This document shows, piece after piece, positions 38 through 21,796 of a stretch of 26,212 nucleotides of DNA. The stretch comes from a virus: the IMG/VR virus record IMGVR_UViG_3300020185_000229, positions 1-26,212 of that record. The stretch is one strand, 5' to 3'. Both the position numbers and the translations under genes were made by a program. Under the pieces are notes generated by a model. That model saw only the letters and a program-made list of their open reading frames with translations. It was not told where the DNA came from and searched no databases. Numbering within the stretch: position 1 is the stretch's first letter; each line of letters opens with the position of its first letter.

Positions 38-673
38 TTACTCTTCGCTAACCTTAGCCTTGATTGCATCTACGTGGCCCTGGATATAGTCATGCTCGTC
101 TTCCATGCCTGCCATTTCAGCCATCATCATGATAGTATCTGCAACTACCTGTGCCATTACGGCATCTTCTGGTACGTGCTTGCGATCAGGATCTTTTTCC
201 ATATAGTATAGCACATCCTGCAACATTGCATTACGAACTGATAGTTCATCAGCATCGTCCATGTCTCCATAGAGTGCAGTTGCGGCTGGGCACATGTCAA
301 AGTGGCGTGTCTGATAATCACCAACCATAACTTCTCCAGTATCTGGATCGTTATCGGGATCGTCATCCTCGCCTACAAGCACAGCTTCTCCTGCTTCAAG
401 TTTAATATTCATCATTACATCATCGGCAGAAGACGTATCAATTTTAGGTAAATTTTTATATTTGTTAACCTGTGCCTGTGTTGCTTTTCTACGCAACTCG
501 TCTTGAAGTTTTTTATTTGCGGCAGTTGTAGCGGTCGTTGTGTTTAATGAATCCTTATCAGTGATACCCTTGCTTAACAATTCTGCTGTTGCAAGGGATT
601 TCATCGCAGAAACATCATCTTGTGCTTCAGTTAATTGTTTAAGTTTATTAAGTAAATCTCTAATATCGCTCAT
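38..673 (-). CDS. Putative virion-internal protein (211 aa), marine phage family
   Basis: Function unknown. I place the start at the ATG at 673 (MSDIRDLLNKLKQLTEAQ) because upstream in-frame codons run into the previous gene and neighbours open with the same kind of peptide. The first helix ends in L-T-E|A, a match to the T4 prohead-protease consensus at residues 14-17. The rest is acidic, with D/E-rich stretches near residues 100-115, a segment around DYQTRHFDMCP, and a Met-rich helical C-terminus. It follows the 48-aa gene by 4 bases. By neighbourhood and N-terminus it is probably a capsid-interior or scaffold-associated protein; this is inference, as no enzymatic motif is visible. Confidence 0.75.
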   Translation of the reverse strand: MSDIRDLLNKLKQLTEAQDDVSAMKSLATAELLSKGITDKDSLNTTTATTAANKKLQDELRRKATQAQVNKYKNLPKIDTSSADDVMMNIKLEAGEAVLVGEDDDPDNDPDTGEVMVGDYQTRHFDMCPAATALYGDMDDADELSVRNAMLQDVLYYMEKDPDRKHVPEDAVMAQVVADTIMMMAEMAGMEDEHDYIQGHVDAIKAKVSEE

Positions 674-677
674 TTGT

Positions 678-824
678 TTATTCCTCGCCAACTTTACGGC
701 ATTTTGTCAATGCGCCACTCGCGTATGCGCTGGGCCATACTTTATATCGTGATTTTACCTTACGATAGAGTGCTTGCTCTTCAAATTCGTTTAATTTGTT
801 AAGTAAAACTCTTATATTATCCAT
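678..824 (-). CDS. Small basic protein (48 aa) with KVWPSAYASGAL motif
   Basis: A short gene opening MDNIRVLLNKLNEFEE, clearly the same N-terminal helix as the 211-aa neighbour, then a basic segment RYKVWPSAYASGALTKCRKV and a stop. From memory, this second segment recurs inside many T4-like marine phage proteins, where it is basic and often sits in packaged or DNA-associated proteins. The ATG at 824 is preceded by AGGAAA. The protein is little more than a targeting-like helix joined to one basic module, which supports the view that this cluster is built of interchangeable parts. It could be a remnant of a longer protein. Confidence 0.7.
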   Translation of the reverse strand: MDNIRVLLNKLNEFEEQALYRKVKSRYKVWPSAYASGALTKCRKVGEE

Positions 825-861
825 TACTTTTCCTAGTCTAGATTATTATATTAGTTGCAAA

Positions 862-1530
862 TCACTCGTCATCGAATGTGGAAGGCATAGAATACATATT
901 AGCAGTTTCAAGTGCTTCCATTGCTTCATTGAGCTTGGCAAACGCATCAGTAACGTAACTGTTATCTCCACCTTCACGGTCTACCATTTTACTAAGAACG
1001 CCGCCTTCAGCAGTTATCTTCATAAGACGATCCATCATGTTAAACATTTTGTCAAAGCTGTCACTAATAGCACTAGCTGTACTTGTGCCTTCTTCTACTG
1101 CACTAGTAACACTGCCTAGTTCATTTCCCTGAGCAACTTCATTCTTAAGGAAGTCTGCATAGCGTAACCTGATATCAGATACAACATCCTCATTTTGTGA
1201 TGTTTCTTCAGCTTCTCTAACTTTTCTAACTTTTTTCTTTCTGCCGTATGAACCTTCGTCAACTTCGTCTTCGTCTTCGTCTTTGTCCTTGACAGCCTTC
1301 TTCATTGGCTCTTGTTTGTCACCGTCACCATCAATATCTAGGAAGTCTGGCTTAGAAGCTTCTTCAAGTTTATCAAATATATGAAGTAAATTAGCAGTAT
1401 CTTTAGCACCATTTACTGATTCACTAGCTGTTTGAGTATACGGAGTCACGTCTACAGATTCGGACAACATGTTGTCATCGGAAATTGAATTTAGTTTTGC
1501 AACTAAATCTCTAAAATTATTATCACTCAT
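862..1530 (-). CDS. Putative virion-internal/scaffold protein with EF-hand-like loop (222 aa)
   Basis: Start is the ATG at 1530 (MSDNNFRDLVAKLNSI), which overlaps the stop of the upstream gene by one base (TAATG), a sign of translational coupling. Candidate prohead-protease sites are LSE|S near residue 24 and LEE|A at 57/58. Just after the second lies DIDGDGDKQEPM (65-76), an EF-hand/dockerin-like calcium loop, then a highly acidic stretch and a basic patch GRKKKVRKVRE near 96-106. The C-terminal third is predicted helical and acidic. The charge pattern resembles scaffold or internal head proteins. No catalytic motif is visible and the function is unproven. Confidence 0.75.
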   Translation of the reverse strand: MSDNNFRDLVAKLNSISDDNMLSESVDVTPYTQTASESVNGAKDTANLLHIFDKLEEASKPDFLDIDGDGDKQEPMKKAVKDKDEDEDEVDEGSYGRKKKVRKVREAEETSQNEDVVSDIRLRYADFLKNEVAQGNELGSVTSAVEEGTSTASAISDSFDKMFNMMDRLMKITAEGGVLSKMVDREGGDNSYVTDAFAKLNEAMEALETANMYSMPSTFDDE

Positions 1531-2093
1531 TACTTTTTGCCCCAATCGCTGAATTTACTGTCATTAGTTTTACCCTTGTTTGCAGCAGCGGCGGCGGCGC
1601 CAATACCATCAGCAGGGTTGCCTGTTGTGCGGTCACGTTCCATACCTGGGTCTTTCTTTGCAGGCACTGGGGGCTTTACCTTTGGCCTTGGGACACTGGT
1701 AACATCCTTTACAAGGTTGTCCATCCCTCGACGTTCTGCATCACTATAGCCTGCCTCTTCTACACTCTCAGCAGCAAGATCAAATGCCATGTCATCCATC
1801 TGGTCGGCTTCATAATTAACTGGATTCATGTCACTCATTGCATAATCCATATTATGGTAAACACTGCCTAAATAGTCAGCAGCCTTTGTTATCTTACTCT
1901 GTTGCCAGCCTTCGATGCCCTGTACTTCACTAACACTTTTAAGCATGTCATGTAGTTTAATTGCATACTTTGCAATCTTGTATAAGTCTGCACGAGCCAT
2001 CTGAACCTCATGATCAAGTTCAACACGATCAGCTAGTTCTCCCAAGTGTCCTTCGTTTAAAATATTATCAAGTTTGTTTAGTATGTCTTTCAT
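1530..2093 (-). CDS. Putative virion-internal protein (187 aa), marine T4-like family
   Basis: The ATG at 2093 (MKDILNKLDNILNEGHLGEL) is chosen over an in-frame codon at 2114 because it sits one base after the upstream stop and restores the short helical N-terminus shared across the cluster. L-N-E|G near residue 14 fits the prohead-protease consensus. A helical central part contains GWQQSKITKAADYLGSVYHN, a segment I recall from many marine T4-like phages without assigned function. The C-terminus is a Pro/Ala/Lys-rich tail with a poly-Ala run, likely disordered. Probably a capsid-interior protein; inference from context. Confidence 0.75.
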   Translation of the reverse strand: MKDILNKLDNILNEGHLGELADRVELDHEVQMARADLYKIAKYAIKLHDMLKSVSEVQGIEGWQQSKITKAADYLGSVYHNMDYAMSDMNPVNYEADQMDDMAFDLAAESVEEAGYSDAERRGMDNLVKDVTSVPRPKVKPPVPAKKDPGMERDRTTGNPADGIGAAAAAANKGKTNDSKFSDWGKK

Positions 2094-2094
2094 T

Positions 2095-3087
2095 TTATGT
2101 ATCCACTTGCCCATCTCTTTGTTGGCGGGCGATACGCAATTCCTCTCGTTTGGACGGGCTTATCCAGTTAAGAGCGGCCCGTCGACGATCTGCTGGGCTT
2201 CCTCCTCCAAACTCTCCACCTGCTCCGCCTGTTTGTGCTGGAGTACTTGGTGCTGCTGGTCTTGCTGGTCCTCCTCCAAACTCACCACCTGCTCCGCCTG
2301 TTTGTGCTGGAGTACGTGGTCTTGCTGGTGCTGGAGCTGCTGGCTTACTTTGGCCAATGCCATATTTCTTCATCGCTGCACGAGTATTTGGGCCCATAAG
2401 TCCGTCTGCTTTAATATCAGCACCTGCCGCTTTAAGTCTTTTCTGTAATTCTAGTGTGCGATTTGGTCCAACGGATGTTGGATTCTTAACATATTTTTCA
2501 CCCTTGATATTTGTCTGATATTCTTTGCCTTTGTAGCTAAATTTACCACCTGGGCCACCTTGTGCCTTACGTGCCGCTGCAAATGCTTGTCCAAAACTTT
2601 GTTCTCCACCAGGTTTTGGTGCCTTAGGTGTTGGTGCCTTTGGTGAAGTCGCGTCGACGGGCTTTCTCGGACTAGCATCTGCATCATTTTTATTATCACC
2701 TGTTAGTGCATCATATGCTACTACTCCTCCTACTCCTAATGCTGCTGGACCAGCGTATTTTCCTTTTCCTTTTGGAACGGGTGTAGCACCTGGTGCAGGA
2801 CGTCGTATTTCAGGCGCTGGACGGGGATCATTCGGCGACCGACCTTTACCACCTTTTAAAGGTAACTCGCCTTGTTTTGGTTTACCTTTAAAAAGGCCTC
2901 GGCCTTTTTTGAGTAACCATTGGCCAGCTGGCAAAGCCAGCTTGTCCCATATTCCTTCATCTAGCTGATTTTCATTAATATAATTTACCATCTCTTCTTT
3001 AGAAATTTTACCTTCTAAGAAGTTACGTAGCATGTCTTCTGCTACTTGCTCTTCGGTTAATTGCGGTTTAAATTCATTAAATTTCAT
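2095..3087 (-). CDS. Modular virion protein with peptidoglycan-binding-like segment (330 aa)
   Basis: N-terminal helical prodomain (1-45) ending in Q-L-D-E|G, a good prohead-protease match, and similar in layout to the prodomain of the next gene upstream. Then come a basic Gly/Lys/Pro-rich linker (60-115), a short hydrophobic stretch (111-127), the phage segment QSFGQAFAAARKAQGG with KGKEYQT (163-192), a peptidoglycan-binding-like helix pair LELQKRLKAAGADIKADGLMGPNT (211-235), and a Pro/Gly-rich tail built from two near-identical 23-residue units. It may bind cell wall during entry or fill the capsid. AAGGAA 10 bases before the ATG is the likely ribosome binding site. Confidence 0.75.
   Translation of the reverse strand: MKFNEFKPQLTEEQVAEDMLRNFLEGKISKEEMVNYINENQLDEGIWDKLALPAGQWLLKKGRGLFKGKPKQGELPLKGGKGRSPNDPRPAPEIRRPAPGATPVPKGKGKYAGPAALGVGGVVAYDALTGDNKNDADASPRKPVDATSPKAPTPKAPKPGGEQSFGQAFAAARKAQGGPGGKFSYKGKEYQTNIKGEKYVKNPTSVGPNRTLELQKRLKAAGADIKADGLMGPNTRAAMKKYGIGQSKPAAPAPARPRTPAQTGGAGGEFGGGPARPAAPSTPAQTGGAGGEFGGGSPADRRRAALNWISPSKREELRIARQQRDGQVDT
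2201..2320 (-). repeat. In-frame tandem repeat, 69-bp period
   Basis: Two 51-base copies (2201-2251 and 2270-2320) differ at only two positions and start 69 bases apart, exactly 23 codons. They encode the repeated TPAQTGGAGGEFGGG stretch in the tail of the 330-aa protein. Such near identity points to recent duplication or slippage. Confidence 0.85.
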
Positions 3088-3100
3088 GTTACTATTTTCC

Positions 3101-3661
3101 TTAAAATCTGTCCACTGCTCTACCAGCTATGTTTATAGAAGAATCGATAGCTGGAGTTGCCGCGGCTGTCCTTCCAGCCGCCTTTACTGTATTGACACCA
3201 ATTTGTTTATTTGTTAAAGCAGCTTTTGCGGCAGCTTTTTTGGCTTTATCTGCCGCTAGTTTTTTACCTAGAACAGTTGCACCTTTTTTAATTGCAGTTT
3301 TACCTAATGCTCTGCCAGCAACAGCGCCTAATCCAACGCCAGTTGCACCAACTGCTGCAGATGTGCCAATACTAGCCCAGTCACCTTTGCTCCATTTTAA
3401 TGGATTAAGACCTTTATCAGCTGCAACGGCAGCGGCGCCAATAGCGCCACCAGCGAGAGCAGTAAATGGTGCCCAAGCTATTTCTGTAACCTGGTCTCTA
3501 CTAAGTTTGGCTTCGTCTATTTTATTTAAAAATTCTTGTTTGGTAATATCCCCGATATAATATTCATTTAGCCACTCGTGAACCTGATATGCTTCACTTT
3601 CGGTTAAAACAGAACTTGATGCATTTTCTATTAAATTAATGTGATCACGTATCGATTTCAT
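3101..3661 (-). CDS. Ala/Gly-rich putative virion protein with protease-processed N-terminus (186 aa)
   Basis: The first 50 residues are helical and end in K-I-D-E|A, with an earlier V-L-T-E|S at 21/22; both fit the T4 prohead-protease consensus. The layout (MKSIRDHINLIE, then a helical block to residue 50) mirrors the 330-aa protein downstream. The remainder is Ala/Gly/Lys-rich with two hydrophobic stretches (about 64-80 and 97-115), suggesting a membrane-active or glycine-zipper-like region, perhaps used when DNA enters the cell. It has its own late promoter (3692-3699) and AAGGGAAG as ribosome binding site. Family not recognised. Confidence 0.72.
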   Translation of the reverse strand: MKSIRDHINLIENASSSVLTESEAYQVHEWLNEYYIGDITKQEFLNKIDEAKLSRDQVTEIAWAPFTALAGGAIGAAAVAADKGLNPLKWSKGDWASIGTSAAVGATGVGLGAVAGRALGKTAIKKGATVLGKKLAADKAKKAAAKAALTNKQIGVNTVKAAGRTAAATPAIDSSINIAGRAVDRF

Positions 3662-3691
3662 GATAAAACTTCCCTTAAATCTTAATAATAG

Positions 3692-3699
3692 TATTTATG
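3692..3699 (-). promoter_or_regulatory. T4-type late promoter CATAAATA
   Basis: On the minus strand CATAAATACTATT matches the T4 late -10 element and its downstream context. It lies 30 bases before the ATG at 3661. Its TAA is also the stop codon of the gene ending at 3695. Confidence 0.7.
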
Positions 3700-3919
3700 C
3701 AGACTGCACTCTTTTAATTACATTTCCCATAACGTTATCGTCTACGTCAAGTGCATTTTTTACAGTTCCATTGGGGTTTAATTTTTGTGGAGCCACAGGA
3801 ATACCGTTCTTATCCGTTTTAAGTTTTTGATTAGATTGTATTGGAGTTGCTAGAGTAGCAAAATTACCTGAGCTTGTTGCACCTGCACTTGCTGCTTCTG
3901 TTATTTCTCTGATTTTCAT
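3695..3919 (-). CDS. Small putative packaged protein with capsid-targeting-like N-terminus (74 aa)
   Basis: Begins MKIREITEAASAG, where I-T-E|A is a clean prohead-protease site at residues 8/9. T4 internal proteins begin MKTYQEFIAEA with cleavage at the same place, so the first eight residues resemble a capsid-targeting sequence. The rest is short, polar and probably disordered, ending VIKRVQSA. The ATG overlaps the upstream stop by four bases (ATGA). The stop codon lies inside a late promoter. No domain is recognisable. Confidence 0.7.
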   Translation of the reverse strand: MKIREITEAASAGATSSGNFATLATPIQSNQKLKTDKNGIPVAPQKLNPNGTVKNALDVDDNVMGNVIKRVQSA

Positions 3920-4371
3920 CTTGGTTTTCCAGGTTGTCCTGTTAGCTGACTTGTGGGTACGGTTGCTTGTTGTGGCGTTTGTCCTGGTACTTTCCTGGTT
4001 ACAGTTGCTTGGTTAGGATTAGCACTAGACATATCTCCTGAAGCAGGATCTATGTTAGTAGTCTGTTGAACACCAGCAACCCTGGGTGTTTGCTTCTGAA
4101 TAGTTTGGTTTGATCTGTTAGTAGTAGCTGTGCCCGTGGCGTCACTGGTTCGGGTTTGCCCTGTAACCTGACTACTTGCTGTTTTAACACCAGCATCACT
4201 TGTACTCTTACTGGTAATACTGCCTCTGCCGCCCTGAACATCGCTGGGCGTAAAATCAACACCAGACTTGGGTGCAGTGGTAGCAGGTCTTGCTGCTGGT
4301 GGTGGCTTAGTTTGACTAGCACTTGCTGGGCCGTTTCCTGGAGTTGCCTCCATTATTTCGCTAATCTTCAT
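3916..4371 (-). CDS. Pro/Thr/Gln-rich putative packaged protein (151 aa)
   Basis: The ATG at 4371 (MKISEIMEATPGNG) is preferred over the in-frame codon at 4392: it has GGAG five to nine bases upstream and yields the MKIxEIxEA peptide shared with the downstream gene, with I-M-E|A as cleavage site. The body is almost entirely Pro, Thr, Ser, Gln and Gly, so it is likely disordered. It overlaps the upstream stop by 11 bases. If cleaved, the mature product would be a long flexible peptide inside the capsid. Function unknown. Confidence 0.68.
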   Translation of the reverse strand: MKISEIMEATPGNGPASASQTKPPPAARPATTAPKSGVDFTPSDVQGGRGSITSKSTSDAGVKTASSQVTGQTRTSDATGTATTNRSNQTIQKQTPRVAGVQQTTNIDPASGDMSSANPNQATVTRKVPGQTPQQATVPTSQLTGQPGKPR

Positions 4372-4594
4372 TTGACAACTCCAAATTTTCATATGTAAAT
4401 GTTACATCTTGCAGAATGCTCTCTATATTTACCTCTGCTTGTTCACAGTCTAACTGAGAACTAAACTTATAATGGCTAAATTCATCACTGGGAATAACAA
4501 AGTCATGCTCTGCCATTAATTCTCCATTTATCCATACTCTATACGCAGGTTGATTTGTATAATCACTGCATTTTATATCAAAACTTACTTTCAT
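4361..4594 (-). CDS. Small beta-rich protein, possibly carbohydrate-binding (77 aa)
   Basis: Reads MKVSFDIKCSDYTNQPAYRV and continues with alternating hydrophobic residues typical of a beta sandwich. The phrase AYRVWINGELMAEHDF resembles the small ligand-binding beta-sandwich proteins seen next to marine phage structural genes, and the protein at 8058-8489 has a similar flavour. I cannot name the family firmly. It starts four bases inside the end of the upstream gene (ATGA) and overlaps the downstream start by 11 bases, so it is translationally coupled on both sides. No cleavage peptide is visible, unlike its neighbours. Confidence 0.65.
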   Translation of the reverse strand: MKVSFDIKCSDYTNQPAYRVWINGELMAEHDFVIPSDEFSHYKFSSQLDCEQAEVNIESILQDVTFTYENLELSNED

Positions 4595-4917
4595 TTACTG
4601 TCTCTCATATTAAATGCAAAACTAACTTGCCTAGCCAACTGTATGCCACGTTGGCGTTCATCTTTACGTGTGCTCTTTTTCATTTTATTTGCTTTAGCAC
4701 GTAGCTTTTTTAGTTCTGCTCTGCTTAGTTCTTCACCTGCACCTTTGCCTAAATATTGTGCGGCTTTACGCTTTAAACTTCCTGGACGACTACCTGGGGT
4801 TGCTTTCCTAGTAAAGTCTTCACTAAGTTGTTCCAATTCTTTAATACATCGTTGTAATTGTTCATCATATATTTTCTCCTCCTTGAGGTTAAGTTGTGAA
4901 ATAATTAGGGTATTCAT
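4591..4917 (-). CDS. Basic, probably nucleic-acid-binding phage protein (108 aa)
   Basis: An N-terminal helix (about residues 10-32) precedes L-S-E|D, then ATPGSRPGSLKRKAAQYLGK, a motif I recall from marine phage proteins of DUF5872 type, and a long Lys/Arg-rich helix ending in RGIQLARQVSFAFNM. The charge suggests DNA binding, fitting a packaged internal protein, though no defined DNA-binding fold is visible. GGGAGAA before the ATG at 4917 is a good ribosome binding site. A 31-base gap separates it from the upstream gene. Confidence 0.68.
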   Translation of the reverse strand: MNTLIISQLNLKEEKIYDEQLQRCIKELEQLSEDFTRKATPGSRPGSLKRKAAQYLGKGAGEELSRAELKKLRAKANKMKKSTRKDERQRGIQLARQVSFAFNMRDSK

Positions 4918-4948
4918 CTTTATTCTCCCTGTCTGATGATAATATTAA

Positions 4949-5416
4949 TTAAGCGCCTTGGTCATTGTCTCCTTCTCTGGGTATAATACTCCAACGCCCA
5001 AATAGATCAACTGCTTTCCAAGCAGCATATATTTTCCAAGCTGGCACACTAGGACTTGCATCTTGCATTGCAACTTTAAACACAAGGTCAGCGGTCTTTT
5101 TTGCATCTGCCACAATTTTCATGTCTGGTTCTGGCTTTGCACGATACTGACGTATACGTAAATATAGTAAATCATGTATAATAGCAGCTCTTGCTACATC
5201 CCAGGGAGCAATAACATTCCATAGGATTTTTGGTGTACTAGCCAGATCTGTAATAAACCCTTTTTTGCATTTAATTTTACTACCAGTAGTGACTACACCA
5301 ACTAGTTCTAGTGCTGACATATCAATATCTGTGTTTTGATATGATAATGCGCGGCTTAATACCCACTTTTTAGGCGGGGTAAACTCTGCCTCGATTTTAT
5401 TATTGAATGTTCCCAT
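4949..5416 (-). CDS. DUF1353-family protein (155 aa)
   Basis: The central signature GFITDLASTP (about residues 53-62) followed by a Pro-containing linker and AAIIHDLLYL (77-86) is characteristic of DUF1353, a small family common in phages and prophages. Its biochemical role is not established; the conserved Asp, Ser, His and Asp residues have led to suspicion of an enzymatic or virion-associated function. AAAGGAAG eleven bases before the ATG is the ribosome binding site. It sits between the polyprotein gene and the internal-protein genes, so a virion role is plausible. Confidence 0.8.
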   Translation of the reverse strand: MGTFNNKIEAEFTPPKKWVLSRALSYQNTDIDMSALELVGVVTTGSKIKCKKGFITDLASTPKILWNVIAPWDVARAAIIHDLLYLRIRQYRAKPEPDMKIVADAKKTADLVFKVAMQDASPSVPAWKIYAAWKAVDLFGRWSIIPREGDNDQGA

Positions 5417-5440
5417 TATGTCTTCCTTTATTCGCTTCTT

Positions 5441-8050
5441 TTACGTCTTTGGGTAACGTATCATTGTCTCTCTATAACGAAAGTCTTTATTACGTCCTTT
5501 GTTGGGGACAAAACCAAAACTCTTATAAAATTGTATGAGTCTGCCTTTACTGCCACCAAATGCTGTATCAGGTGTTAGCGCAATAATCGCGCCTTCCATA
5601 TCTGCTTTGTTGATTAAATCCTGCATTATTTTAGAACCTACACCAGTGCCACGCAACTCCTTGGGTACTACAATCTTACTTAGTACGTAGCCCTTTTCAG
5701 CATTACCAGATATATCAACTTCAACATTTTCGTTATAACTCAATTTTCCAGGCGTGCTCTTCTTTATTTTAAGTTCACGATGAGGTGCTATGCCAACAAT
5801 TATGCCATTACTGAGCGGCACTCCAATACTGCCTCGTTCCGTTAACTGCCCTTCTGCTAGATTGCTTGCATCAACTAGCCAAACTTTTGCTTTGCCATAT
5901 GTAGTAATAAGTCCTATTAGTCGAGTATTTCCAGCAACTAGGCTATATGATCCATCTGATTGCTTAACTACTATGGGCATCTCAATAGTGCCTGCATCCA
6001 TTGCTTGTTTAAGTCTAGCAACTTTTTCTGGCTCTAAGTCATCCAATGCCTCACTGCCATCAGCACCAGTATTCTCAATATTTTTTACACTATTTGTATT
6101 AACAGTTATTACTTTACCTGCACCAGCAAGTTCTTCCCAACCTGCTTGTCCTAATTTTTCTAAGTATGGATAGCGATTTGCTTCTTCCCATTCTACATCA
6201 AACTGTGGCTTTACGTAGTCTACTGATTCTGTTAGTCCAAGATTAAACAGTGTATTTGGATCTGAGTTCTTGGCTGCTTTTGTATGTAGGAGTGGTGGAC
6301 GCCCGCCCTTGTCCACCTTAAATCCCATCTTGTTTGCCTGTACTTTAATTTCATTTGGTCCTACGTCAGGCGTGGTGTTTACACCTTTAACAATTATGCC
6401 ATCTTCGGCAATGTCTTGGGCTTCTTCTTTCATACCAGCATGCATCGCTGCCATATGATTCTTGTACTTTGTAGTACCTTTTTTGTGTGGGCTTTTACCT
6501 TCTGCAGGCATCAATTTCTTTACACGCCCTTTGAATATTTGCTGTTCGCCTTTGTCTGTTACTGCTACAGGTTGGTTATGTTTGTCCTTAGTAAAATCTT
6601 TAATAGTTGCCTTGCGGTTCTTAAACTTGCCCACCATTAGTTCATCACCAGTCTCTAGGTCTGGCAGATTTAATTTTGCTTCGTACTTTGCACTCCAGGA
6701 TTCTAATACTGACTTTAATTTGTTTTTTACATTTTCATTTAATGGTTTCACTTCATTTAATCTACGGAGTGTTCCCGTGACCTGAATAATTCGGTCTAGG
6801 CTTTCCATCATACCATCTGCTTCTTCAATATCTTCTTTTTGGGTTTTAATCCAGTCAATAGCATCTCTTTTACTACCAACTGTCCTATCCCATCCCCAAT
6901 CGTCTCTGTCCTTCATAAAAATTTGCCACTCACCAGATGGTCGGTCATTACGATTCAATCGTGGTGATATTTTATATTCTGTTTTACCCTGCTTAATTAT
7001 GTAAGCACCAGGTTCTCCTAGAACTTTTTTGGCCATTTCATCAAGTTCAACTTCTTCGATAGGAACATCATCCATAAATGCTCTTAGATCTGGATGTCTT
7101 AACTGTCTTAGTACTTTAGCCAGGCGTTGTCTAATTACTTCTCGAGTTACTCCCATCGCTGTTGCTATTTGATCTAATGTATAACTTTTTTCAAACTTTC
7201 CTATACCAAAGTATGCCTGTACAACCTGCTTGTTTTTATCATTGCCGAGACCGTCTATTAATCTAGCAACGGTTTTTTTAAGTTTAGCTGTGTCGAGACT
7301 ATCAAAATCAAATTCATATGGCTCGTCTGGCATATCAACTTGCTTAAACCTTTTAGTAATATCATTAGGCTTGGAAGTATTACTTGTAGGCAAGCGTCCA
7401 CCAGTTGTTGTATATCTAAAACTTTGTGTGTCTCCTGACATTGATCGCTTGTTAACTGCATCAGCTTCTGGAACAGGCTCTTGATCTTTAATACCCATGC
7501 CATTGCGTACAGCATCATACATACTCTGTGCCATGTCTGGATTGGGTGTGCCCGATTTAAATGCTTCAAATTCACCAGCGGCGGCGGCTGCTCGCATCTT
7601 ACTTGCGCTCATACCCTCAGCACCTTCTGCATCTGGGTCACGCTCGCCAGCACTTACCACTTGAATACTATCAAAAGTATATTGGTCTTCTTGACCGTTG
7701 TATTTGTTAATTAGGTCTGTAAATTGGTTTACTCTATCACTGCCAGCAACATATACGAGATCTGTATATCCCATATTATATACTTTTATTAATGCGTCAA
7801 ATATAGTACGTACTTCAGGGTCACCTACACTTACGCCGGGAAAGAAAGCCTTTGCAAAGCCTAGTTTTTGCTCAAAACTAAGAGGATCAGTCTTTGGCTT
7901 TTGACTTTGGCTAAGGAATATGTAAGGATCTCCACCCTGGCTTTTAACAACTTCAACAACTTTAGCATGGCCAATTGTAGGAGGATTCATTCTCCCAAAG
8001 GCAATAGTAGCTGTACGTCGTGGTGCTTCTGTAATCTGGTGGATCCTCAT
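5441..8050 (-). CDS. Multidomain putative capsid polyprotein: nucleotidylyltransferase, sigma region 4, ParB-like, GNAT (869 aa)
   Basis: Starts at the ATG at 8050 (MRIHQITEAPRRT); upstream in-frame codons lie inside the previous gene. I-T-E|A at 8/9 matches a capsid-targeting cleavage. Modules in order: nucleotidylyltransferase (13-185; GRMNPPTIGH with TIGH at 25-28 and SASKMR at 148-153), sigma-70 region 4 (253-328; HTH YTLDQIATAMGVTREVIRQR then LRHP), a small alpha/beta segment (348-405), a basic KOW/SH3-like part (440-515), the phage motif KYKNHMAAMHAGM (528-540), a segment with GPNEIKVQANKMG (564-577), a ParB/sulfiredoxin-like domain (640-730; AGNTRLIGL), and a GNAT acetyltransferase (775-865; RGTGVGSKIM). 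Candidate protease sites between modules include PE|A 195, IEE|A 410, LTE|S 608 and LAE|G 733. A TATAAATA box ends four bases before the ATG. Confidence 0.85.
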   Translation of the reverse strand: MRIHQITEAPRRTATIAFGRMNPPTIGHAKVVEVVKSQGGDPYIFLSQSQKPKTDPLSFEQKLGFAKAFFPGVSVGDPEVRTIFDALIKVYNMGYTDLVYVAGSDRVNQFTDLINKYNGQEDQYTFDSIQVVSAGERDPDAEGAEGMSASKMRAAAAAGEFEAFKSGTPNPDMAQSMYDAVRNGMGIKDQEPVPEADAVNKRSMSGDTQSFRYTTTGGRLPTSNTSKPNDITKRFKQVDMPDEPYEFDFDSLDTAKLKKTVARLIDGLGNDKNKQVVQAYFGIGKFEKSYTLDQIATAMGVTREVIRQRLAKVLRQLRHPDLRAFMDDVPIEEVELDEMAKKVLGEPGAYIIKQGKTEYKISPRLNRNDRPSGEWQIFMKDRDDWGWDRTVGSKRDAIDWIKTQKEDIEEADGMMESLDRIIQVTGTLRRLNEVKPLNENVKNKLKSVLESWSAKYEAKLNLPDLETGDELMVGKFKNRKATIKDFTKDKHNQPVAVTDKGEQQIFKGRVKKLMPAEGKSPHKKGTTKYKNHMAAMHAGMKEEAQDIAEDGIIVKGVNTTPDVGPNEIKVQANKMGFKVDKGGRPPLLHTKAAKNSDPNTLFNLGLTESVDYVKPQFDVEWEEANRYPYLEKLGQAGWEELAGAGKVITVNTNSVKNIENTGADGSEALDDLEPEKVARLKQAMDAGTIEMPIVVKQSDGSYSLVAGNTRLIGLITTYGKAKVWLVDASNLAEGQLTERGSIGVPLSNGIIVGIAPHRELKIKKSTPGKLSYNENVEVDISGNAEKGYVLSKIVVPKELRGTGVGSKIMQDLINKADMEGAIIALTPDTAFGGSKGRLIQFYKSFGFVPNKGRNKDFRYRETMIRYPKT

Positions 8051-8054
8051 GCAG

Positions 8055-8062
8055 TATTTATA
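8055..8062 (-). promoter_or_regulatory. T4-type late promoter TATAAATA next to polyprotein start
   Basis: A perfect TATAAATA on the minus strand ends four bases before the polyprotein ATG and contains the TAA stop of the upstream gene. By T4 spacing transcription would begin at or inside the start codon, so it would give a leaderless message or none that is useful for this ATG. No Shine-Dalgarno sequence is visible. Confidence 0.5.
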
Positions 8063-11808: not shown

Positions 11809-14076
11809 TCATAATTCGACGCTAACTTCTTTAACGCGATCGGTGGTTCCATCTACCATATTCTTTTTAATAAATTTTATAATCAGTCCTTTACCATCAT
11901 GGGAGGCCCTTATCTTTATTTTACACTGGTTTGTCGTTTTGTCTACCATTATTGACTTGGCAATGGGTGTTCTTAGATATTTGTCTACGGCCCTAGCAAC
12001 AGGTCTGGCTCCCATTTTTTTATCGAACCCTGCGTTAATAAGTGCGTCAATACTTGCTTCATCTATGTTTACTACATACCCCTTAACTCTGAGTTGCTCT
12101 TTAAGTTCATTAACAAACTTCATTACAATCTTACGTTTGGTAATATCATTTAGACCACCAAACTCGATTACCTCGTCAACCCGGTTGCGGAACTCTGGAC
12201 GGAAGAATTTTTTGTATGCATCCTCTTGGTCACCTTCTCTTGCCGCCCTGTTGAATCCGATCGGCTCACGTTCTGCCTCTTCAGCACCCAGGTTAGTAGT
12301 CATAATGACAATTGTATTACGTGCATCTGCTACCTTGCCATTGCTGCTTGTAACATAACCTTCATCCATTAATTGTAGTAGAATATTACTTACATCTGGA
12401 TGCGCTTTTTCAATCTCGTCAAACAGGATAATAGAGTTAGGGTTGCGTTCGATGTCTTTAATTAGAAGCCCTCCACTTAGGTTGCCATCTTCATACCCAA
12501 CATATCCTGGAGGAGCACCAATAAACCTGGCTACACTGTGCCGTTCCTGATACTCACTCATATCATAGCGTAATAGTTTCATGTGTAGTTCTGCACTTAG
12601 TTGCTTGGCTAGCTCTGTTTTACCTGTGCCAGTGGGTCCAGTAAACACAAATACACCAATTGGTTTATCATGTGCACGTAATCCGCTTTTGCTAACATAC
12701 ACACGATCCAAAACCTTGCCAATAGCACTGTCTTGCCCATATAAACGGCTTTTAATTTTACTCTCAATATCAGTAATATTGTTTTCCTCAGGACGTTGTT
12801 CTAATTGGTCCATGGGAATTCCTGTTGACTTGCTTAACTCTGCAACAATTAATTCGCTTGTAATATAAGGGTTAGTATTTTCCATTCTACGCTGACGTGC
12901 ACAAGCACTATCAATAAGATCAAACGCCTTGTCAGGCAACCTTTTATCACGTTGATACTCTACGCTTAAATCTACTGCACTGTTAACTGCTTCTGGGGTA
13001 ATACTAGCACCGTGGAACTTTTCATAGTACTGCATAGTGGCACTGAGTATTTCTTTAGCAACTTTGGGCGTAGGTTCGTCTACTGTGATGCGATAGAACC
13101 GCCGCATTAGTGCACGATCCTTCTCAAATGATTCCGTATACTCTTCCCAGGTAGTACTTGCTACGACTTTCAATGCGCCCTTGCTCAAGTATGGCTTGAG
13201 GATGTTTGCAAAATCAGTGCCACCACCGCCTCCTGCACCAGCCCCTTTAATAGTGTGCGCTTCGTCAATGAAAAGGATGCAATTTCCCTTTTCAATAAGT
13301 GCTTCTAGTACTTCCTTAACACGTTCTTCAAATTGCCCACGATACTGTGTGCCAGCAATTATTGTACCCACCTCTAAATTATATACGGTATAGTCCTTGA
13401 GGTAACTGGGACATTTTTCTAAATGTATCTTAAGAGCAACGCCTTCTGCTATAGCAGTCTTACCAACTCCTGGATCACCCACCATCAGTACATTTGCTTT
13501 GTTTCGACGAGCAAATGTTTGGAATATGTCATCTACAATATCGTCCCTGCCAATGACGGGATCAATTTTATCCTCTTTGCACAGTGTATTTAAATTAGTA
13601 CAGTATTCTTGTAGCAAGCTCTCAAAATAAATTTCTTTTTCTTGCGCACGTAACTTGCTTGCATAATTTTCCTCAATAAATTTGATAAATTCATCACGTT
13701 CTATATTATACTTCATAATAAAGTATTGACTCATTGTATTATCTTCTGCCATAATACCAAGAAACACATCAAATAGATTTAATTTCTCTCTACCACTAAA
13801 GAGTACTTGAGTGTATGCACGATTAAATGATTTCTCTAGTATATGACTACGCTTGGCATCTTTGTCTACCTTGGGAAATTTATCAGTTATGTATTTTACT
13901 AGGTCACTTTCTAACTCGCTTACTTGCACACCATAGTCAATTAAAATACTTCTAAACTCTTTGTCACCCAGCATTGCAATAAGCATGTGTTCTGTAGTCA
14001 CATACTCATGCTTATTGTTTTTGGCTAATTTATCAGCTTTCTGCAGTATACTCTCAATTTGACTGTTCTTTTTCAT
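11809..14076 (-). CDS. clpA: ClpA-type AAA+ unfoldase (755 aa)
   Basis: A two-ring ATPase subunit that unfolds proteins and, in ClpA, feeds them to ClpP. The Clp N domain spans about 1-140 (TTEHMLIAML at 27-36). NBD1 has Walker A VGDPGVGKT (199-207) and Walker B CILFIDEAH (266-274). NBD2 has Walker A TGPTGTGKT (479-487), Walker B IILFDEIEKAHP (549-560) and sensor-2 region KKMGARPVAR (686-695). No ClpB-type coiled-coil middle domain interrupts NBD1 and NBD2, so ClpA/C type. An IGF tripeptide at 606-608 lies where ClpA carries its ClpP-docking loop, so docking on host ClpP is plausible. No phage ClpP is in view. The start overlaps dnaJ by 23 bases. Confidence 0.93.
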   Translation of the reverse strand: MKKNSQIESILQKADKLAKNNKHEYVTTEHMLIAMLGDKEFRSILIDYGVQVSELESDLVKYITDKFPKVDKDAKRSHILEKSFNRAYTQVLFSGREKLNLFDVFLGIMAEDNTMSQYFIMKYNIERDEFIKFIEENYASKLRAQEKEIYFESLLQEYCTNLNTLCKEDKIDPVIGRDDIVDDIFQTFARRNKANVLMVGDPGVGKTAIAEGVALKIHLEKCPSYLKDYTVYNLEVGTIIAGTQYRGQFEERVKEVLEALIEKGNCILFIDEAHTIKGAGAGGGGGTDFANILKPYLSKGALKVVASTTWEEYTESFEKDRALMRRFYRITVDEPTPKVAKEILSATMQYYEKFHGASITPEAVNSAVDLSVEYQRDKRLPDKAFDLIDSACARQRRMENTNPYITSELIVAELSKSTGIPMDQLEQRPEENNITDIESKIKSRLYGQDSAIGKVLDRVYVSKSGLRAHDKPIGVFVFTGPTGTGKTELAKQLSAELHMKLLRYDMSEYQERHSVARFIGAPPGYVGYEDGNLSGGLLIKDIERNPNSIILFDEIEKAHPDVSNILLQLMDEGYVTSSNGKVADARNTIVIMTTNLGAEEAEREPIGFNRAAREGDQEDAYKKFFRPEFRNRVDEVIEFGGLNDITKRKIVMKFVNELKEQLRVKGYVVNIDEASIDALINAGFDKKMGARPVARAVDKYLRTPIAKSIMVDKTTNQCKIKIRASHDGKGLIIKFIKKNMVDGTTDRVKEVSVEL

Positions 14077-14914
14077 TTTCTCTCATTCTCTTTAGGGTAT
14101 TTAACTGATCTTCCGTGAGGGTAGTAGGAATCTTTGTTAGTACAATCACTTTTAGATCTCCGCGTAATCCTGATTGTTTATCTACCAATCCTTTTTGTGG
14201 TATACGCATTACTGTGCCGTGTTGTGTACCTTTGGGAACATTTACTGTGTATTTTTTGTTTTCAACGTCGTATACAGTAACACTAGTTCCTATTATAGCA
14301 TCAATTGCATTGATTGTACAGTTTACATTAACTGTTGAACCATTAATTTCATATTTGTCTATATCTGTAAATGTAACATGCACAACCAGACTTCCTGGAG
14401 GAACCCCAGAAATGCTAGAATCTCCCAATCCGTTATACTTAATACTATCGCCCGGCATTGTTCCTGCAGGCACACTTACCTTTACCATCTTGTGTGTATT
14501 ATCCAGATGTTTAACTTTAATCATTCTATTTTGACATGTCAAACTTTCTGCAAGTGTTAATTGTATTGTAATACTTAGGTCTTTATTCTTTGCCTGTTTG
14601 TGATAACTTCTAGTAGGAGAAAATGGGCCCGTATCTCCAAAAACTGAGTTGAGATCTTTAAAAACATCATAAAAAATGTCATGATCTTTGCCATTAATAT
14701 TAACATGTATGCTACCTTGGGATACGTTTGTGTGATCGTATTGGGCACGTTTAGCCGAATCTTTTAATATATCATATGCATCATTGATTTTTCTAAACTC
14801 ATCAGGATCACCACCCCGGTCAGGATGACTCTGCTTGGCTTTTGTTCTAAAAGCATATTTTATATCGTCAAGGCTTGCTGTAGGCTCTACACCTAGAATA
14901 CTATAATAGGTCAT
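14054..14914 (-). CDS. dnaJ: DnaJ/CbpA-type J-domain co-chaperone without zinc finger (286 aa)
   Basis: Stimulates the ATPase of Hsp70 (DnaK) and delivers clients. J domain at 1-65 with the essential H-P-D at 30-32 (SHPDRGGDPDEF). A short Gly-poor linker follows, then two beta-rich C-terminal domains (about 110-275) with VKVSVPAGTMPGDSI and VNVPKGTQHGTVMRI, as in type II DnaJ. The CxxCxGxG zinc repeats of type I are absent. Its end overlaps the ClpA-type gene by 23 bases, giving a chaperone-unfoldase pair. A near-consensus sigma-70 promoter ends seven bases before the ATG and no ribosome binding site is visible, so translation is probably leaderless. Confidence 0.93.
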   Translation of the reverse strand: MTYYSILGVEPTASLDDIKYAFRTKAKQSHPDRGGDPDEFRKINDAYDILKDSAKRAQYDHTNVSQGSIHVNINGKDHDIFYDVFKDLNSVFGDTGPFSPTRSYHKQAKNKDLSITIQLTLAESLTCQNRMIKVKHLDNTHKMVKVSVPAGTMPGDSIKYNGLGDSSISGVPPGSLVVHVTFTDIDKYEINGSTVNVNCTINAIDAIIGTSVTVYDVENKKYTVNVPKGTQHGTVMRIPQKGLVDKQSGLRGDLKVIVLTKIPTTLTEDQLNTLKRMRENEKEQSN

Positions 14915-15322: not shown

Positions 15323-15330
15323 TATTTATC
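15323..15330 (-). promoter_or_regulatory. T4-type late promoter GATAAATA
   Basis: GATAAATAGCATAC on the minus strand, 28 bases before the ATG at 15294, with AGGAG between. Confidence 0.65.
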
Positions 15331-17190: not shown

Positions 17191-17502
17191 TCAAATTTGA
17201 ATGCCGTTTAGACGCATCTGCTCCTTGACTTCGTCTGTAACCATGTCTCTGTCCCAGGGCAAATAAAATCCTAGCTCTACATCTACAGTGCCTATGCTTG
17301 GTATAGCACGTAAGCAATCTTTGATGTCTTGTACTAGTCCTCCTGTGCCGGGGCAACCCATGCATGGTATACAAACTTCAACGTGTACATTGTTGTTAGT
17401 GATTGTAATGTCACGCAACATGCCCATACTACTTATCGGAACAGGTACGTGCGGATCGTTTACTTGTTCTAATTTTTGACGTATTTGCTGCTCTGTAATC
17501 AC
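17191..17502 (-). CDS. paaD: PaaD/MIP18-like iron-sulfur assembly protein (103 aa)
   Basis: PaaD works with the phenylacetyl-CoA epoxidase complex and is thought to help mature its metal or Fe-S centres. Here the DUF59/MIP18 core is visible: EQVNDPHVPVPISSMGMLRD near the N-terminus, then VCIPCMGCPGTGGL with the reactive Cys, and LPWDRDMVTDEVKEQMRLNGI, which aligns with the end of the PaaD core (E. coli [20 protein letters not shown]). The C-terminal zinc ribbon of full-length PaaD is missing. I start it at the GTG at 17502, whose GTGA overlaps the stop of the PaaA-like gene, rather than at a TTG at 17520. Confidence 0.82.
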   Translation of the reverse strand: MITEQQIRQKLEQVNDPHVPVPISSMGMLRDITITNNNVHVEVCIPCMGCPGTGGLVQDIKDCLRAIPSIGTVDVELGFYLPWDRDMVTDEVKEQMRLNGIQI

Positions 17503-18419
17503 CAGAGCTCTGTGCCCCAACGTTCTGTTTGTACTTCAGTAATGCTGGGTACTTTATGCTTACTGCCTCGTTTCCAGATAGCTAGTTGTTCTTCCCAGGT
17601 CATAGTATCTTCATAGTCCCATTTACGTGTATCTTCATCTAGACGAATTGGTACTTCATAATCAAATACATACTTTCCAACTTCTGGGTCATAGTGTGCT
17701 GGTACTTTGATACCAACTTCCTCACTAAAAGGCACAACTCCGCTTAACCAAATCTGACGCATTTCGTCATTCGTTCCGCCACGAATTCTGTAAGTCTGTT
17801 GATCTGTTCTTGTCTTATGTTCATCGGGCAAACCAAACCATGCAGCGCATAATGGGAAATAAAAGTCAACGCACTCCTGCACCCTTCGTCTACTGTCTTC
17901 ATCTTTATTCCAAAAGAATTTGGTCCAGCGTTCCCCGTGACCAACATGGAAAGTCTCTTCAAAGTTTACTTTACGTAGACCACGTGCAAGTGGTGCATAA
18001 CTACAGTTCTCTTCTAGGTCCACAGTTGTAATGTAGCCTGCACGATCACCGTAGCACATACTTACTACAGTTTCAATATAGTCCTCATGTGGGAATTCCA
18101 GCATCTGGAATGTCCGCCATTCTTCTGGATCACGCTCAAATAAGAAGTCGTGTGTATCGTATCCAAAATCTTCTAACAGTCTATACATAACCTGTGCATG
18201 GCCAAGTTCGTCTTGACATGCGGCCGCAACTGCTAGTTTATCTTCTAATGTTGGTGAGTTTTTAATAGCAGGGAAATAAGTTGGAAGTGTAACTACTTCT
18301 AAATCTGCTGCTATGTGTATCGTGTTTACTAGGACATCGCGATAACGTGGTGACATTTCGTCTGGATCTTCTATCTTGTATCCTGTTGCTAGTTTTTCTT
18401 GCAATCCTTGCTCATTCAT
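17499..18419 (-). CDS. paaA: PaaA-like diiron monooxygenase/epoxidase subunit (306 aa)
   Basis: In bacteria PaaA is the catalytic ferritin-like subunit of phenylacetyl-CoA 1,2-epoxidase (PaaABCE). The chain aligns end to end with E. coli PaaA from memory: SPRYRDVL...IHIAADLEVVTLP (metal Glu at 41), KLAVAAACQDELGHA (DExxH, E71/H74), VNFEETFHVGHG (E154/E155, H158), then GTNDEMRQIW...VPFSEEVGIKVP and the C-terminal tail. The ligands expected for a diiron site are all present, so the enzyme is probably active. PaaB, PaaC and PaaE are absent from the window; it may pair with host subunits or oxidise another CoA thioester. ATGA-like coupling to the Cys-rich gene upstream and GTGA coupling to paaD show one transcript. 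Confidence 0.85.
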   Translation of the reverse strand: MNEQGLQEKLATGYKIEDPDEMSPRYRDVLVNTIHIAADLEVVTLPTYFPAIKNSPTLEDKLAVAAACQDELGHAQVMYRLLEDFGYDTHDFLFERDPEEWRTFQMLEFPHEDYIETVVSMCYGDRAGYITTVDLEENCSYAPLARGLRKVNFEETFHVGHGERWTKFFWNKDEDSRRRVQECVDFYFPLCAAWFGLPDEHKTRTDQQTYRIRGGTNDEMRQIWLSGVVPFSEEVGIKVPAHYDPEVGKYVFDYEVPIRLDEDTRKWDYEDTMTWEEQLAIWKRGSKHKVPSITEVQTERWGTELW

Positions 18420-20273: not shown

Positions 20274-20281
20274 TATTTATA
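20274..20281 (-). promoter_or_regulatory. T4-type late promoter TATAAATA
   Basis: TATAAATACAG on the minus strand, 26 bases before the ATG at 20247. It lies in the gap after the lysozyme gene and heads the spanin-oxygenase transcript. Confidence 0.78.
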
Positions 20282-20289
20282 GTATCAAG

Positions 20290-20733
20290 CTATGCTAAGG
20301 ATCTCATTCTTTGAACTAATCGATCTGCACGATTAGTAACTTGTTTGTACCAACCACTGTCGACCATTTCGTCAGCAGCGGCGTTCCAATCACGGGCATC
20401 AACGCCACGCTTCATGCCTTTAAATTTGCTTAACCGTGGTCTACCCATATTGAACATCATGTTTGCAATCACTTGTTGAGCTTCTTCTGGCAACTCATCG
20501 AAGTCTGGATATAGGATGGCGCAGTCTGACAATACTGTTTGGACATCTTGCTCGAAGGCTTCAGCCACTCTAGACTCTGATACTTCTGTACCTGTGGCTT
20601 GGCCATGTTCGGGGTCATCTTCGCGAATAAGATGCCCGATCCCAAAAGTAGGATAGCCAAGATGGTCAAGGTAAATTTCGTATTTAACACCCTCGTCAAT
20701 CTCGAGTTGTTCTCTTAAAACTTGTAAATCCAT
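20290..20733 (-). CDS. e: T4-type lysozyme (GH24 muramidase, 147 aa)
   Basis: Hydrolyses the beta-1,4 bond between MurNAc and GlcNAc in peptidoglycan. LEIDEGVKYEIYLDHLGYPT (10-29) holds the catalytic triad E14, D23 and T29, with the same spacing as E11, D20 and T26 of T4 lysozyme, followed by FGIGHLI. The C-terminal lobe has VIANMMFNMGRPRLSKF and ends near RADRLVQRMRSL. Start at the ATG at 20733 with AGGAG six bases upstream; the in-frame codon at 20766 is rejected. No signal peptide, so a holin must release it, as in T4. It overlaps the gene upstream by 38 bases. Confidence 0.93.
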   Translation of the reverse strand: MDLQVLREQLEIDEGVKYEIYLDHLGYPTFGIGHLIREDDPEHGQATGTEVSESRVAEAFEQDVQTVLSDCAILYPDFDELPEEAQQVIANMMFNMGRPRLSKFKGMKRGVDARDWNAAADEMVDSGWYKQVTNRADRLVQRMRSLA

Positions 20734-21247
20734 CGATGTCTCCTTTTTTTCTTGATATACGTGCACTGTTTAACATACTCTCAAGAACATTTTTGGATTC
20801 TTTTGCTTCCTTGTATGCTCGTGGACTGAGAGGTATAATCTGATTTAAACTTTTTTTGTTTAGTTTGTAAGTAGGGTTACGTTTGTCTTGGAAGTACAAA
20901 ACCTGCCAGTCTTCTGGTTTGTGTTCTGTTAGATTTGAAAGATCACCAATTAAACTAATAAGTTTCTCTGGGTACCAAGTTCTACGTGGACATTCTACAA
21001 ATACAAGATACTCATCTTTGGCAACTTCTCCGGGTGATGTCTCAGCATCAAGTATCCAATTATATCCACGCTCTAGAAAACGTTCTAGGTCATTTGCTGG
21101 ATTCTTACCAAACACTTTAAATGTAGTAACGATAACGTCTGCATCATCGCCCATTTTAGCAGAAAATTCGTCAATATGAATCTTGTTGCTAATTCTACCT
21201 GATAGGTCACTAGCTTGGAGGCTTTCATTAAACTGTTGGTACGGCAT
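20696..21247 (-). CDS. Hypothetical virion-type protein (183 aa)
   Basis: Start at the ATG at 21247 (MPYQQFNESLQASDLSGR) with AGGAG six bases before. The chain is alpha/beta with ADVIVTTFKVFGKNPANDLE and DEYLVFVECPRRTWYPEKLI, segments I recall from marine T4-like phages next to structural genes, without a named function. It overlaps the upstream gene by 20 bases and the lysozyme by 38, so the three are co-translated. A capsid, neck or tail-assembly role is likely, not shown. Confidence 0.72.
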   Translation of the reverse strand: MPYQQFNESLQASDLSGRISNKIHIDEFSAKMGDDADVIVTTFKVFGKNPANDLERFLERGYNWILDAETSPGEVAKDEYLVFVECPRRTWYPEKLISLIGDLSNLTEHKPEDWQVLYFQDKRNPTYKLNKKSLNQIIPLSPRAYKEAKESKNVLESMLNSARISRKKGDIDGFTSFKRTTRD

Positions 21248-21770
21248 CTGGGTCTCCTGGTACTGCACCCGCCTGGGCATCCATTGCTGTAGTATCCTGC
21301 ATGTTCTGGTTGTATGCATCGTCTAGCTCTTGTAAATCAATATCCTGGCCTTCAAGTTCAATAAAGCCTTCTGCAATGTCTTCTATAACTTCTCTGGGCA
21401 TCTGAATCTTAACTGTCCAAACTGGATCTTCTTTGAGTTTTGCTTTTTTAGTACCAGGCCTAAAGTCTGAATAACTTTCAATTTTCACTGGGGTCTTGAG
21501 TGTGTCTTTTATATACTCCACTTTGGCGCGATACTCTAACAGTCTCTTACCTCCATCAGGATCAGGCATAAGTTTTTGAGGCCACATAAATGTGCACTCT
21601 ACCCAGTGTCTGTGACGTACTGGGCCTTCAATAAGCTCACCCTTTTTCCAGTTTTTAAACGCATAGATGTCTAGTTCATCCAATACTCGCTCAAAGTCCA
21701 TAAGCGTTTTTAAACTAGATTCGCTCATATAGATCTTTTTGCTGTTCTCTACAATGTCTTTGATATCCAT
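21228..21770 (-). CDS. Hypothetical virion-type protein (180 aa), marine T4-like family
   Basis: Opens MDIKDIVENSKKIYMSESSL and contains MDFERVLDELDIYAFKNWKK and CTFMWPQKLMPDPDGGKRLL, a pattern I recall as conserved in marine T4-like phages near structural genes. The C-terminus is acidic with an Ala/Pro-rich tail (GAVPGDPDAVPTV). No enzymatic motif is visible. It is the first gene behind a perfect late promoter and is coupled to the next gene. Probably a structural or assembly protein. Confidence 0.75.
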   Translation of the reverse strand: MDIKDIVENSKKIYMSESSLKTLMDFERVLDELDIYAFKNWKKGELIEGPVRHRHWVECTFMWPQKLMPDPDGGKRLLEYRAKVEYIKDTLKTPVKIESYSDFRPGTKKAKLKEDPVWTVKIQMPREVIEDIAEGFIELEGQDIDLQELDDAYNQNMQDTTAMDAQAGAVPGDPDAVPTV

Positions 21771-21788
21771 GATAACACCCTTATAATG

Positions 21789-21796
21789 TATTTATA
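21789..21796 (-). promoter_or_regulatory. T4-type late promoter TATAAATA
   Basis: TATAAATACATTATAAGGG on the minus strand, 18 bases before the ATG at 21770, in the 29-base gap after the small membrane protein. It should drive the virion-lysozyme genes. Confidence 0.8.

Follow-up and report, generated by a model that had tools for sequence, protein, structure and literature searches.

The locus described here raises the question of why a marine virus of bacteria should join several unrelated enzymatic domains in a single chain, and of whether that chain acts whole or in pieces. The window, a 26-kb fragment (26,212 nt), contains an ORF of 869 aa on the minus strand (5441..8050), with its ATG at 8050 and its stop at 5441. 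A sequence-only reading had placed an 869-aa chain at these positions, omitting the strand, and had proposed a multi-enzyme precursor that is packed into the prohead and cut. Packaging and cleavage are the best-supported account of this protein because of its T4-type leader, the homologues of one module found in virions, the sites at module junctions, a late-promoter sequence, and a relative that carries gp21 and gp23; the packing of this protein, the cutting, the injection and the activities of the modules are what we infer. The chain is probably a cargo precursor of the polyvalent kind, which enters the prohead by means of its leader, is cut in trans by gp21 at the joints and is delivered with the DNA.

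The chain begins with the leader MRIHQITE/A (residues 1-8, 8027..8050; the slash marks the predicted cut), which, as judged from its sequence and from the leaders of homologues, is similar to the peptide that targets T4 internal proteins to the capsid. The following module (residues 9-195, 7466..8026), which ends in VPE/A, is a putative cytidylyl/NMN-adenylyltransferase-like enzyme with the motifs GRMNPPTIGH and SASKMR. A CTP_transf_like domain was identified at residues 16-114 (Pfam, 1.3e-4, over the cut-off), and the N-terminus falls in the cyanophage "cytidyltransferase" PHROG family (1e-50), in agreement with the nucleotidylyltransferase proposed earlier. This assignment depends on Pfam, PHROG and the motifs, since a phmmer search against PDB gave no meaningful match for the module. 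A piece 85% identical to it in the relative L001 stops at residue 187. The sigma-70 region 4 module (residues 225-325, 7076..7378) was likewise recovered, with Sigma70_r4 at residues 270-319 (7e-10, over the cut-off) and region 4 of RpoD as the best PDB match (1e-7). No sigma-70 region 2 or 3 was detected in the chain, and this part is, by its predicted domain content, a sigma-4-like module rather than a full sigma factor. A search for relatives of the sigma module joined to residues 339-411 confirmed none, so that the sigma module as joined here is without a sequenced relative in the collection searched.

The middle of the chain consists of smaller pieces. Glu338 (7037..7039), at the candidate cut LDE/M, lies ahead of an unnamed alpha/beta module of ~70 aa (residues 339-410, 6821..7036) that ends in IEE/A; the corresponding site is LDE in L001 and IVE in L017, and copies of the module in these two relatives are 81-84% identical to it. 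A helical spacer (residues 411-450, 6701..6820) contains the candidate sites MME/S, LNE/V, LNE/N and VLE/S. The KOW-like part of the earlier reading corresponds to a basic module (residues 458-516, 6503..6679) for which the likeness is weak, consisting of a sub-threshold KOW match (E 0.003) in the L002 homologue. It is followed by a recurrent short basic module, GKSPHKKGTTKYKNHMAAMHAGM (residues 517-541, 6428..6502), and by the recurrent module DGIIVKGVNTT...LFNLGLTE (residues 550-608, 6227..6403), which ends in LTE/S and has a hydrophobic-x-Glu (hxE) motif at its end in 8/9 copies. Two of these recurrent modules, residues 339-405 and 550-605, had gone unmentioned before.

The C-terminal part contains a ParB-like module (residues 609-733, 5852..6226) that ends in LAE/G. 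The sequence score for the ParB-like domain claimed earlier is weak (ParB_N 0.11) and a sequence search against isolate phages gave no match for this part; its predicted fold is that of ParB and sulfiredoxin. An AF2 model of residues 598-736 reached a pLDDT of 88.5, and its leading Foldseek matches all fall in one superfamily (ParB, Noc, PadC, sulfiredoxin and SbnI), although their E values, 0.017-0.06, are modest. The NTR box with its conserved Arg is invariant in 14 sequences. On the strength of the model, residues 609-733 belong to the ParB/sulfiredoxin superfamily, and the folded limits of the module coincide with E608 and E733. The remainder of the chain comprises a short module beginning RGSIGVPLS (residues 734-764, 5759..5851), with LTE/R just before it, and a GNAT acetyltransferase module (residues 765-869, 5444..5758), for which the expected domain was found at residues 788-848 (1.3e-5, slightly below the cut-off) and which is homologous to the GNAT of phage polyvalent (DarB-like/PLxRFG) proteins. 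A profile search detected no peptidase domain in the 869-aa chain. The AlphaFold model of the whole chain was poor, with a pLDDT of 41 even from a cleaner alignment, and only two segments, residues 349-405 and the ParB-like module, could therefore be checked by structure. The proposal that module limits fall at the candidate sites held for these two segments; for the rest of the chain the model is too poor to place limits.

Relatives were collected as 18 loci from a scan of uncultivated viral contigs, in which pieces of the query, with up to 85% identity, turn up in different orders, in different proteins or alone. Residues 1-187 and 413-462 occur together in one L001 protein and residues 328-409 in another, while pieces 733-772 and 746-869 recur in further relatives. 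The ParB-like module (about 609-733) is present in 18/18 loci and forms a separate gene of ~120 residues in L009; with the cytidylyltransferase, which stands alone in cyanophages, it provides the single-module genes for which the earlier reading had proposed to look. Relatives add other modules, namely a 5'-nucleotidase (NT5C), a CCA-adding enzyme and an SLT transglycosylase with LysM, and one further module appears endolysin-like in our own reading of its sequence. At L013 5203-7062 a polyprotein starts with SLT transglycosylase and LysM and continues with ParB-like and NT5C modules, and at L006 5638-8697 another combines a CCA-adding enzyme, NT5C, ParB-like and GNAT modules with one strict site and no leader. 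Since a single chain combines at least two domains that differ widely in biochemical activity, and since architectures are shuffled, the protein is by its architecture a polyvalent one.

The joints between these modules share one kind of site. T4 gp21 cleaves after L/I-x-E, and an Asp in place of the Glu blocks the processing of T4 IPIII (PMC9026906). The candidate residues named earlier, E8, E410, E608 and E733, are all at the positions given for them; the same rule adds linker sites at E195, E333/E338, E416-E450, E542/E549 and E738. The 16 hydrophobic-x-E sites of the window protein are divided between 162 non-module residues, which hold 14, and 707 module residues, which hold two (p 3e-9, or 4e-6 when the helical spacer, as 413-462, is treated as a module). 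Their placement is not chance. Across 17 shuffled proteins, with junctions defined by at least three alignment ends, a window of 6 aa and circular shifts as the null, [LIVMF]xE was found within 6 aa of 47/68 junctions (null 15.4±3.4, 0/5000), a count in which junctions of related proteins are partly non-independent, and [LI]xE near 30/68 (null 7.9±2.5). Counted by boundary type, a site is present in the majority of copies for 11/13 types (p 3e-4, background 0.35). Controls with LxD, LxK, LxQ and polar-xE were at or near chance, and the lack of enrichment for polar-xE and LxD rules out general linker acidity as the cause of the sites. In an earlier, looser run the strict motif gave 36/96 against 8.3±2.7, with mild enrichment of the controls [LIVMF]xD[AGSQ] and [LIVMF]xA[AGSQ]. 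P1' varies widely (S, A, D, N, G) and the P3 residues are encoded by 14 kinds of codon, so that the sites are conserved as protein and not as DNA; a DNA-level recombination motif is ruled out by the same variation. The pattern has a counter-case in the L006-type relative, in which the leader is missing and strict sites are nearly absent.

This pattern suggests cutting, and it also bears on the likeliest rival account, in which the protein is packed, only its leader is removed, the internal hxE motifs are scars of fused leader-bearing genes, and one multidomain chain enters the new host. Leader and internal sites are indeed alike, and a module may follow either of them, as in MKLRELFE/DGRIVKGVNTT of L012 vs DIAE/DGIIVKGVNTT of the window; several polyvalent proteins, such as N4 virion RNA polymerase, TraC1 and ArdC, are moreover packaged or transferred uncut (PMC5512222). 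However, sites are kept at 69% of junctions even though identity between many of the copies is no more than 40-80%, and such sites stand after module ends as well (LFNLG followed by LTE, LAE or LSE), which scars explain less well; with regard to an uncut chain, T4 gp21 requires just a short motif. Because sites persist at both ends of diverged modules, fusion scars are disfavoured, and we consider this account unlikely.

Packaging is suggested by the leader and by homology. The first 10 residues of T4 IPIII suffice for head incorporation (PMC9026906), and the chain, like T4 internal proteins, starts with a short peptide ending in L/I-x-E at about residue 8-10. Such a leader begins 12/13 of the Kyanoviridae homologues examined (S-MbCM6, S-MS29, S-RIM4, S-SM2, ACG-2014f, S-CREM1, S-SZBM1, Melnitz, P-SSM4, syn9, S-H34 and P-SSM2), the types including MKKFSAFLSE/A, MKSFFQFLSE/A, MRFRQFIIE/A (S-SZBM1), MKGFSNFLIE/A and, in P-SSM2, MKSFSQFLTE/T. 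The exception is S-PM2 (L142 880-2052), where an unrelated protein is joined in front of the cytidylyltransferase, which has no leader; in the RaK2 and Paride homologues, also leaderless, the enzyme begins at once. Multi-module homologues occur in isolates, namely the 650-aa protein of the Methylophilales phage Melnitz and SSZBM1_139/140 of S-SZBM1. The S-SZBM1 homologue was found in purified virions by mass spectrometry (PMC9146016 Table 1), and cytidylyltransferase/NMNAT is also present in virions of S-CREM2 and S-SCSM1 (PMC10665884, PMC9602691). Peptide support in these reports is small (two for S-SZBM1_140, three for S-CREM2 ORF154), and the detections cover homologues of one module rather than a full polyprotein of this type.

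The cyanophage authors themselves allowed for carry-over in CsCl (PMC10665884, PMC9602691), which would suit a multifunctional late protein that acts in the infected cell in the ordinary way and is never packaged, its leader likeness and site pattern being incidental; the leaderless relatives (L003, L006 and the stand-alone ParB gene of L009) point the same way. Such a protein would hardly account for a leader kept in twelve Kyanoviridae homologues and missing in two other lineages, for site specificity with negative controls, or for the SLT, LysM and putative endolysin-like modules of relatives, which suit virion proteins, and we regard this explanation as improbable.

Leader-type sites are also clustered in the genes neighbouring that of the packaged, cut precursor proposed here. 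All on the minus strand, these genes carry the leaders MKISEIME/A (3916..4371), MKIREITE/A (3695..3919), MKDILNKLDNILNE/G (1530..2093) and MSDIRDLLNKLKQLTE/A (38..673), or the leader-type sites LTE/S at residue 21 (3101..3661, with ATAAATA upstream) and MLSE/S (862..1530). A strict leader-type site is present in 7/8 genes of the cluster 38-8050 vs 3/26 other genes of the window (p 2e-4); this grouping is post hoc, placing the small site-less genes 4361-4594, 4591-4917 and 4949-5416 among the others, and becomes 7/11 with them included. The eighth gene (2095-3087) has LTE/E, which is not strict. Elsewhere in the window, the region 20696-21770 contains two genes of the PHROG category "virion structural protein", one of which starts with the possible leader MPYQQFNE/S.

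The sequence ATAAATA forms the T4 late-promoter core. One copy (8055..8061, minus strand) lies 4 nt before the ATG of the polyprotein gene and is invariant in the window, L001, L016 and L017. Over 13 loci, 33/44 copies of ATAAATA occur within 40 nt before a start, compared with 7-37% for other AT-rich 7-mers. Directly before gene starts on the minus strand of the window, it is found at 8055-8061, 3692-3698, 15323-15329, 20274-20280 and 21789-21795. Since its spacing to the start is bimodal over the 13 loci (4-5 nt and 17-31 nt), the sequence suggests that late transcripts may be near-leaderless for some genes, the polyprotein gene included.

Neither gp21 nor gp23 is present in the 26-kb window. 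The sole relative long enough to include them, G004 (307 kb), encodes a gp20 portal, a gp21 protease, a gp22-like scaffold and gp23, with these head genes ~165 kb away from its polyprotein. The lack of gp21 and gp23 matches in other relatives says little, because this distance exceeds the reach of those fragments, and it was set aside as counter-evidence. The N-terminal part of the G004 gp23 contains RHLSE/AATSG, with a predicted site RHLSE/A, and the S-SZBM1 gp23 has the same motif in its N-terminal part. Members of phrog_13138, a virion protein family, are encoded by the window and by 10 relatives; in three cases (the window, G004 and G017) the distance to the polyprotein gene is ~13 kb. Other genes of the window include TctA (Pfam 6e-89) with an adjoining TctC-like binding protein assigned by sequence (22765-25240), parts of a tripartite tricarboxylate transporter and a candidate auxiliary metabolic gene set; a PaaA/PaaC-like protein (3e-48) and, after it, a protein with an FeS-assembly P domain (17191-18419); and a ClpA/B-like AAA+ protein (PHROG ATP-dependent protease, 1e-230) adjoining a DnaJ-like protein (11809-14914).

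With gp21 seen in one relative only and a broad P1', the joints could in principle be cut by another protease, either a second phage enzyme or a host Glu-specific one, for instance after injection; for polyvalent proteins, embedded metallopeptidases are the presumed processing enzymes (PMC5512222). The chain has no peptidase domain, however, the P3 preference fits the T4 gp21 rule, and the gp23 proteins of G004 and S-SZBM1 share the motif, which together make this the least probable of the explanations weighed.

The best reading is a protein that functions as T4 internal proteins do but is built like a polyvalent protein (PMC5512222), without an embedded peptidase. With T4 Alt and IPI-III it shares an N-terminal peptide of ~10 residues ending in hxE/A, clustered genes, enzymes as cargo (predicted here) and T4-type head genes, the latter in a relative; T4 cargo proteins, however, have a single activity apiece and are processed at their ends, whereas this chain strings together many modules and has sites where they meet. 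The polyvalent proteins described by Iyer et al. (2017), such as P1 DdrB/DarB and PLxRFG, similarly combine unrelated enzymatic domains in one chain, are shuffled and, as is predicted for this gene, belong to phage late genes; the GNAT and ParB-fold domain families are common to both, with 47-54% identity between the GNAT module and the GNAT inside DarB-like/PLxRFG polyvalent proteins of other phages. In contrast to them, the chain has no embedded metallopeptidase or assemblin-like peptidase (common there but not universal), is presumably cut at its joints by the prohead protease acting in trans, and includes a nucleotidylyltransferase and a sigma region 4 among its modules; the terms "cyanophage", "Myovir" and "sigma" have no match in the text of the 2017 paper (Iyer et al.). 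The cyanophage virion NMNAT/cytidylyltransferases (S-SZBM1_140, S-CREM2 ORF154 and S-SCSM1 ORF91) are homologous to the N-terminal module, and the S-SZBM1 protein and its relatives share the leader, which the portions of those reports considered here do not mention, but they are proteins of 290-425 aa and not an 869-aa multi-enzyme chain. The SPN3US/phiKZ ejection proteins are likewise large protein cargo in heads, cut after Glu by a gp21 relative; there propeptides are removed, and enzyme-by-enzyme release from one precursor is unreported in the part of that source considered (PMC10052503). In the open-access literature searched, no description was found of prohead-protease sites at polyvalent-protein joints or of capsid-targeting leaders of cyanophage enzymes.

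Under the proposed mechanism, the cargo precursor would be synthesized late, and its first eight residues would act as a capsid-targeting peptide that pulls the chain into the prohead core. A T4-type prohead protease (gp21 family, L/I/V-x-E/) would take off the leader and cut the linker sites between modules, freeing the nucleotidylyltransferase, the sigma region 4, the ParB-fold domain, the acetyltransferase and small basic pieces, which would remain with the DNA and go into the next host cell upon infection. Because the joints share one kind of site, modules would be exchangeable without loss of processing, and recombination may exchange them between precursors while processing is kept. On balance, we favour a more general reading, somewhat less firmly than that of the single chain: T4-type marine phages may possess an exchangeable cargo system in which modules flanked by protease sites are recombined behind a capsid-targeting leader, so that each phage packs different, separately released effectors from one gene, among them a sigma region 4 delivered by injection and an enzyme resembling NMN-adenylyltransferase.

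If true, this would explain the repeated finding of nucleotidylyltransferases and other non-structural proteins in cyanophage virions, and the leader together with the joint sites would serve as a sequence rule for predicting which cargo abundant marine phages inject. It would also be the phage equivalent of the polyproteins of eukaryotic viruses, with the head protease doing the cutting in trans.
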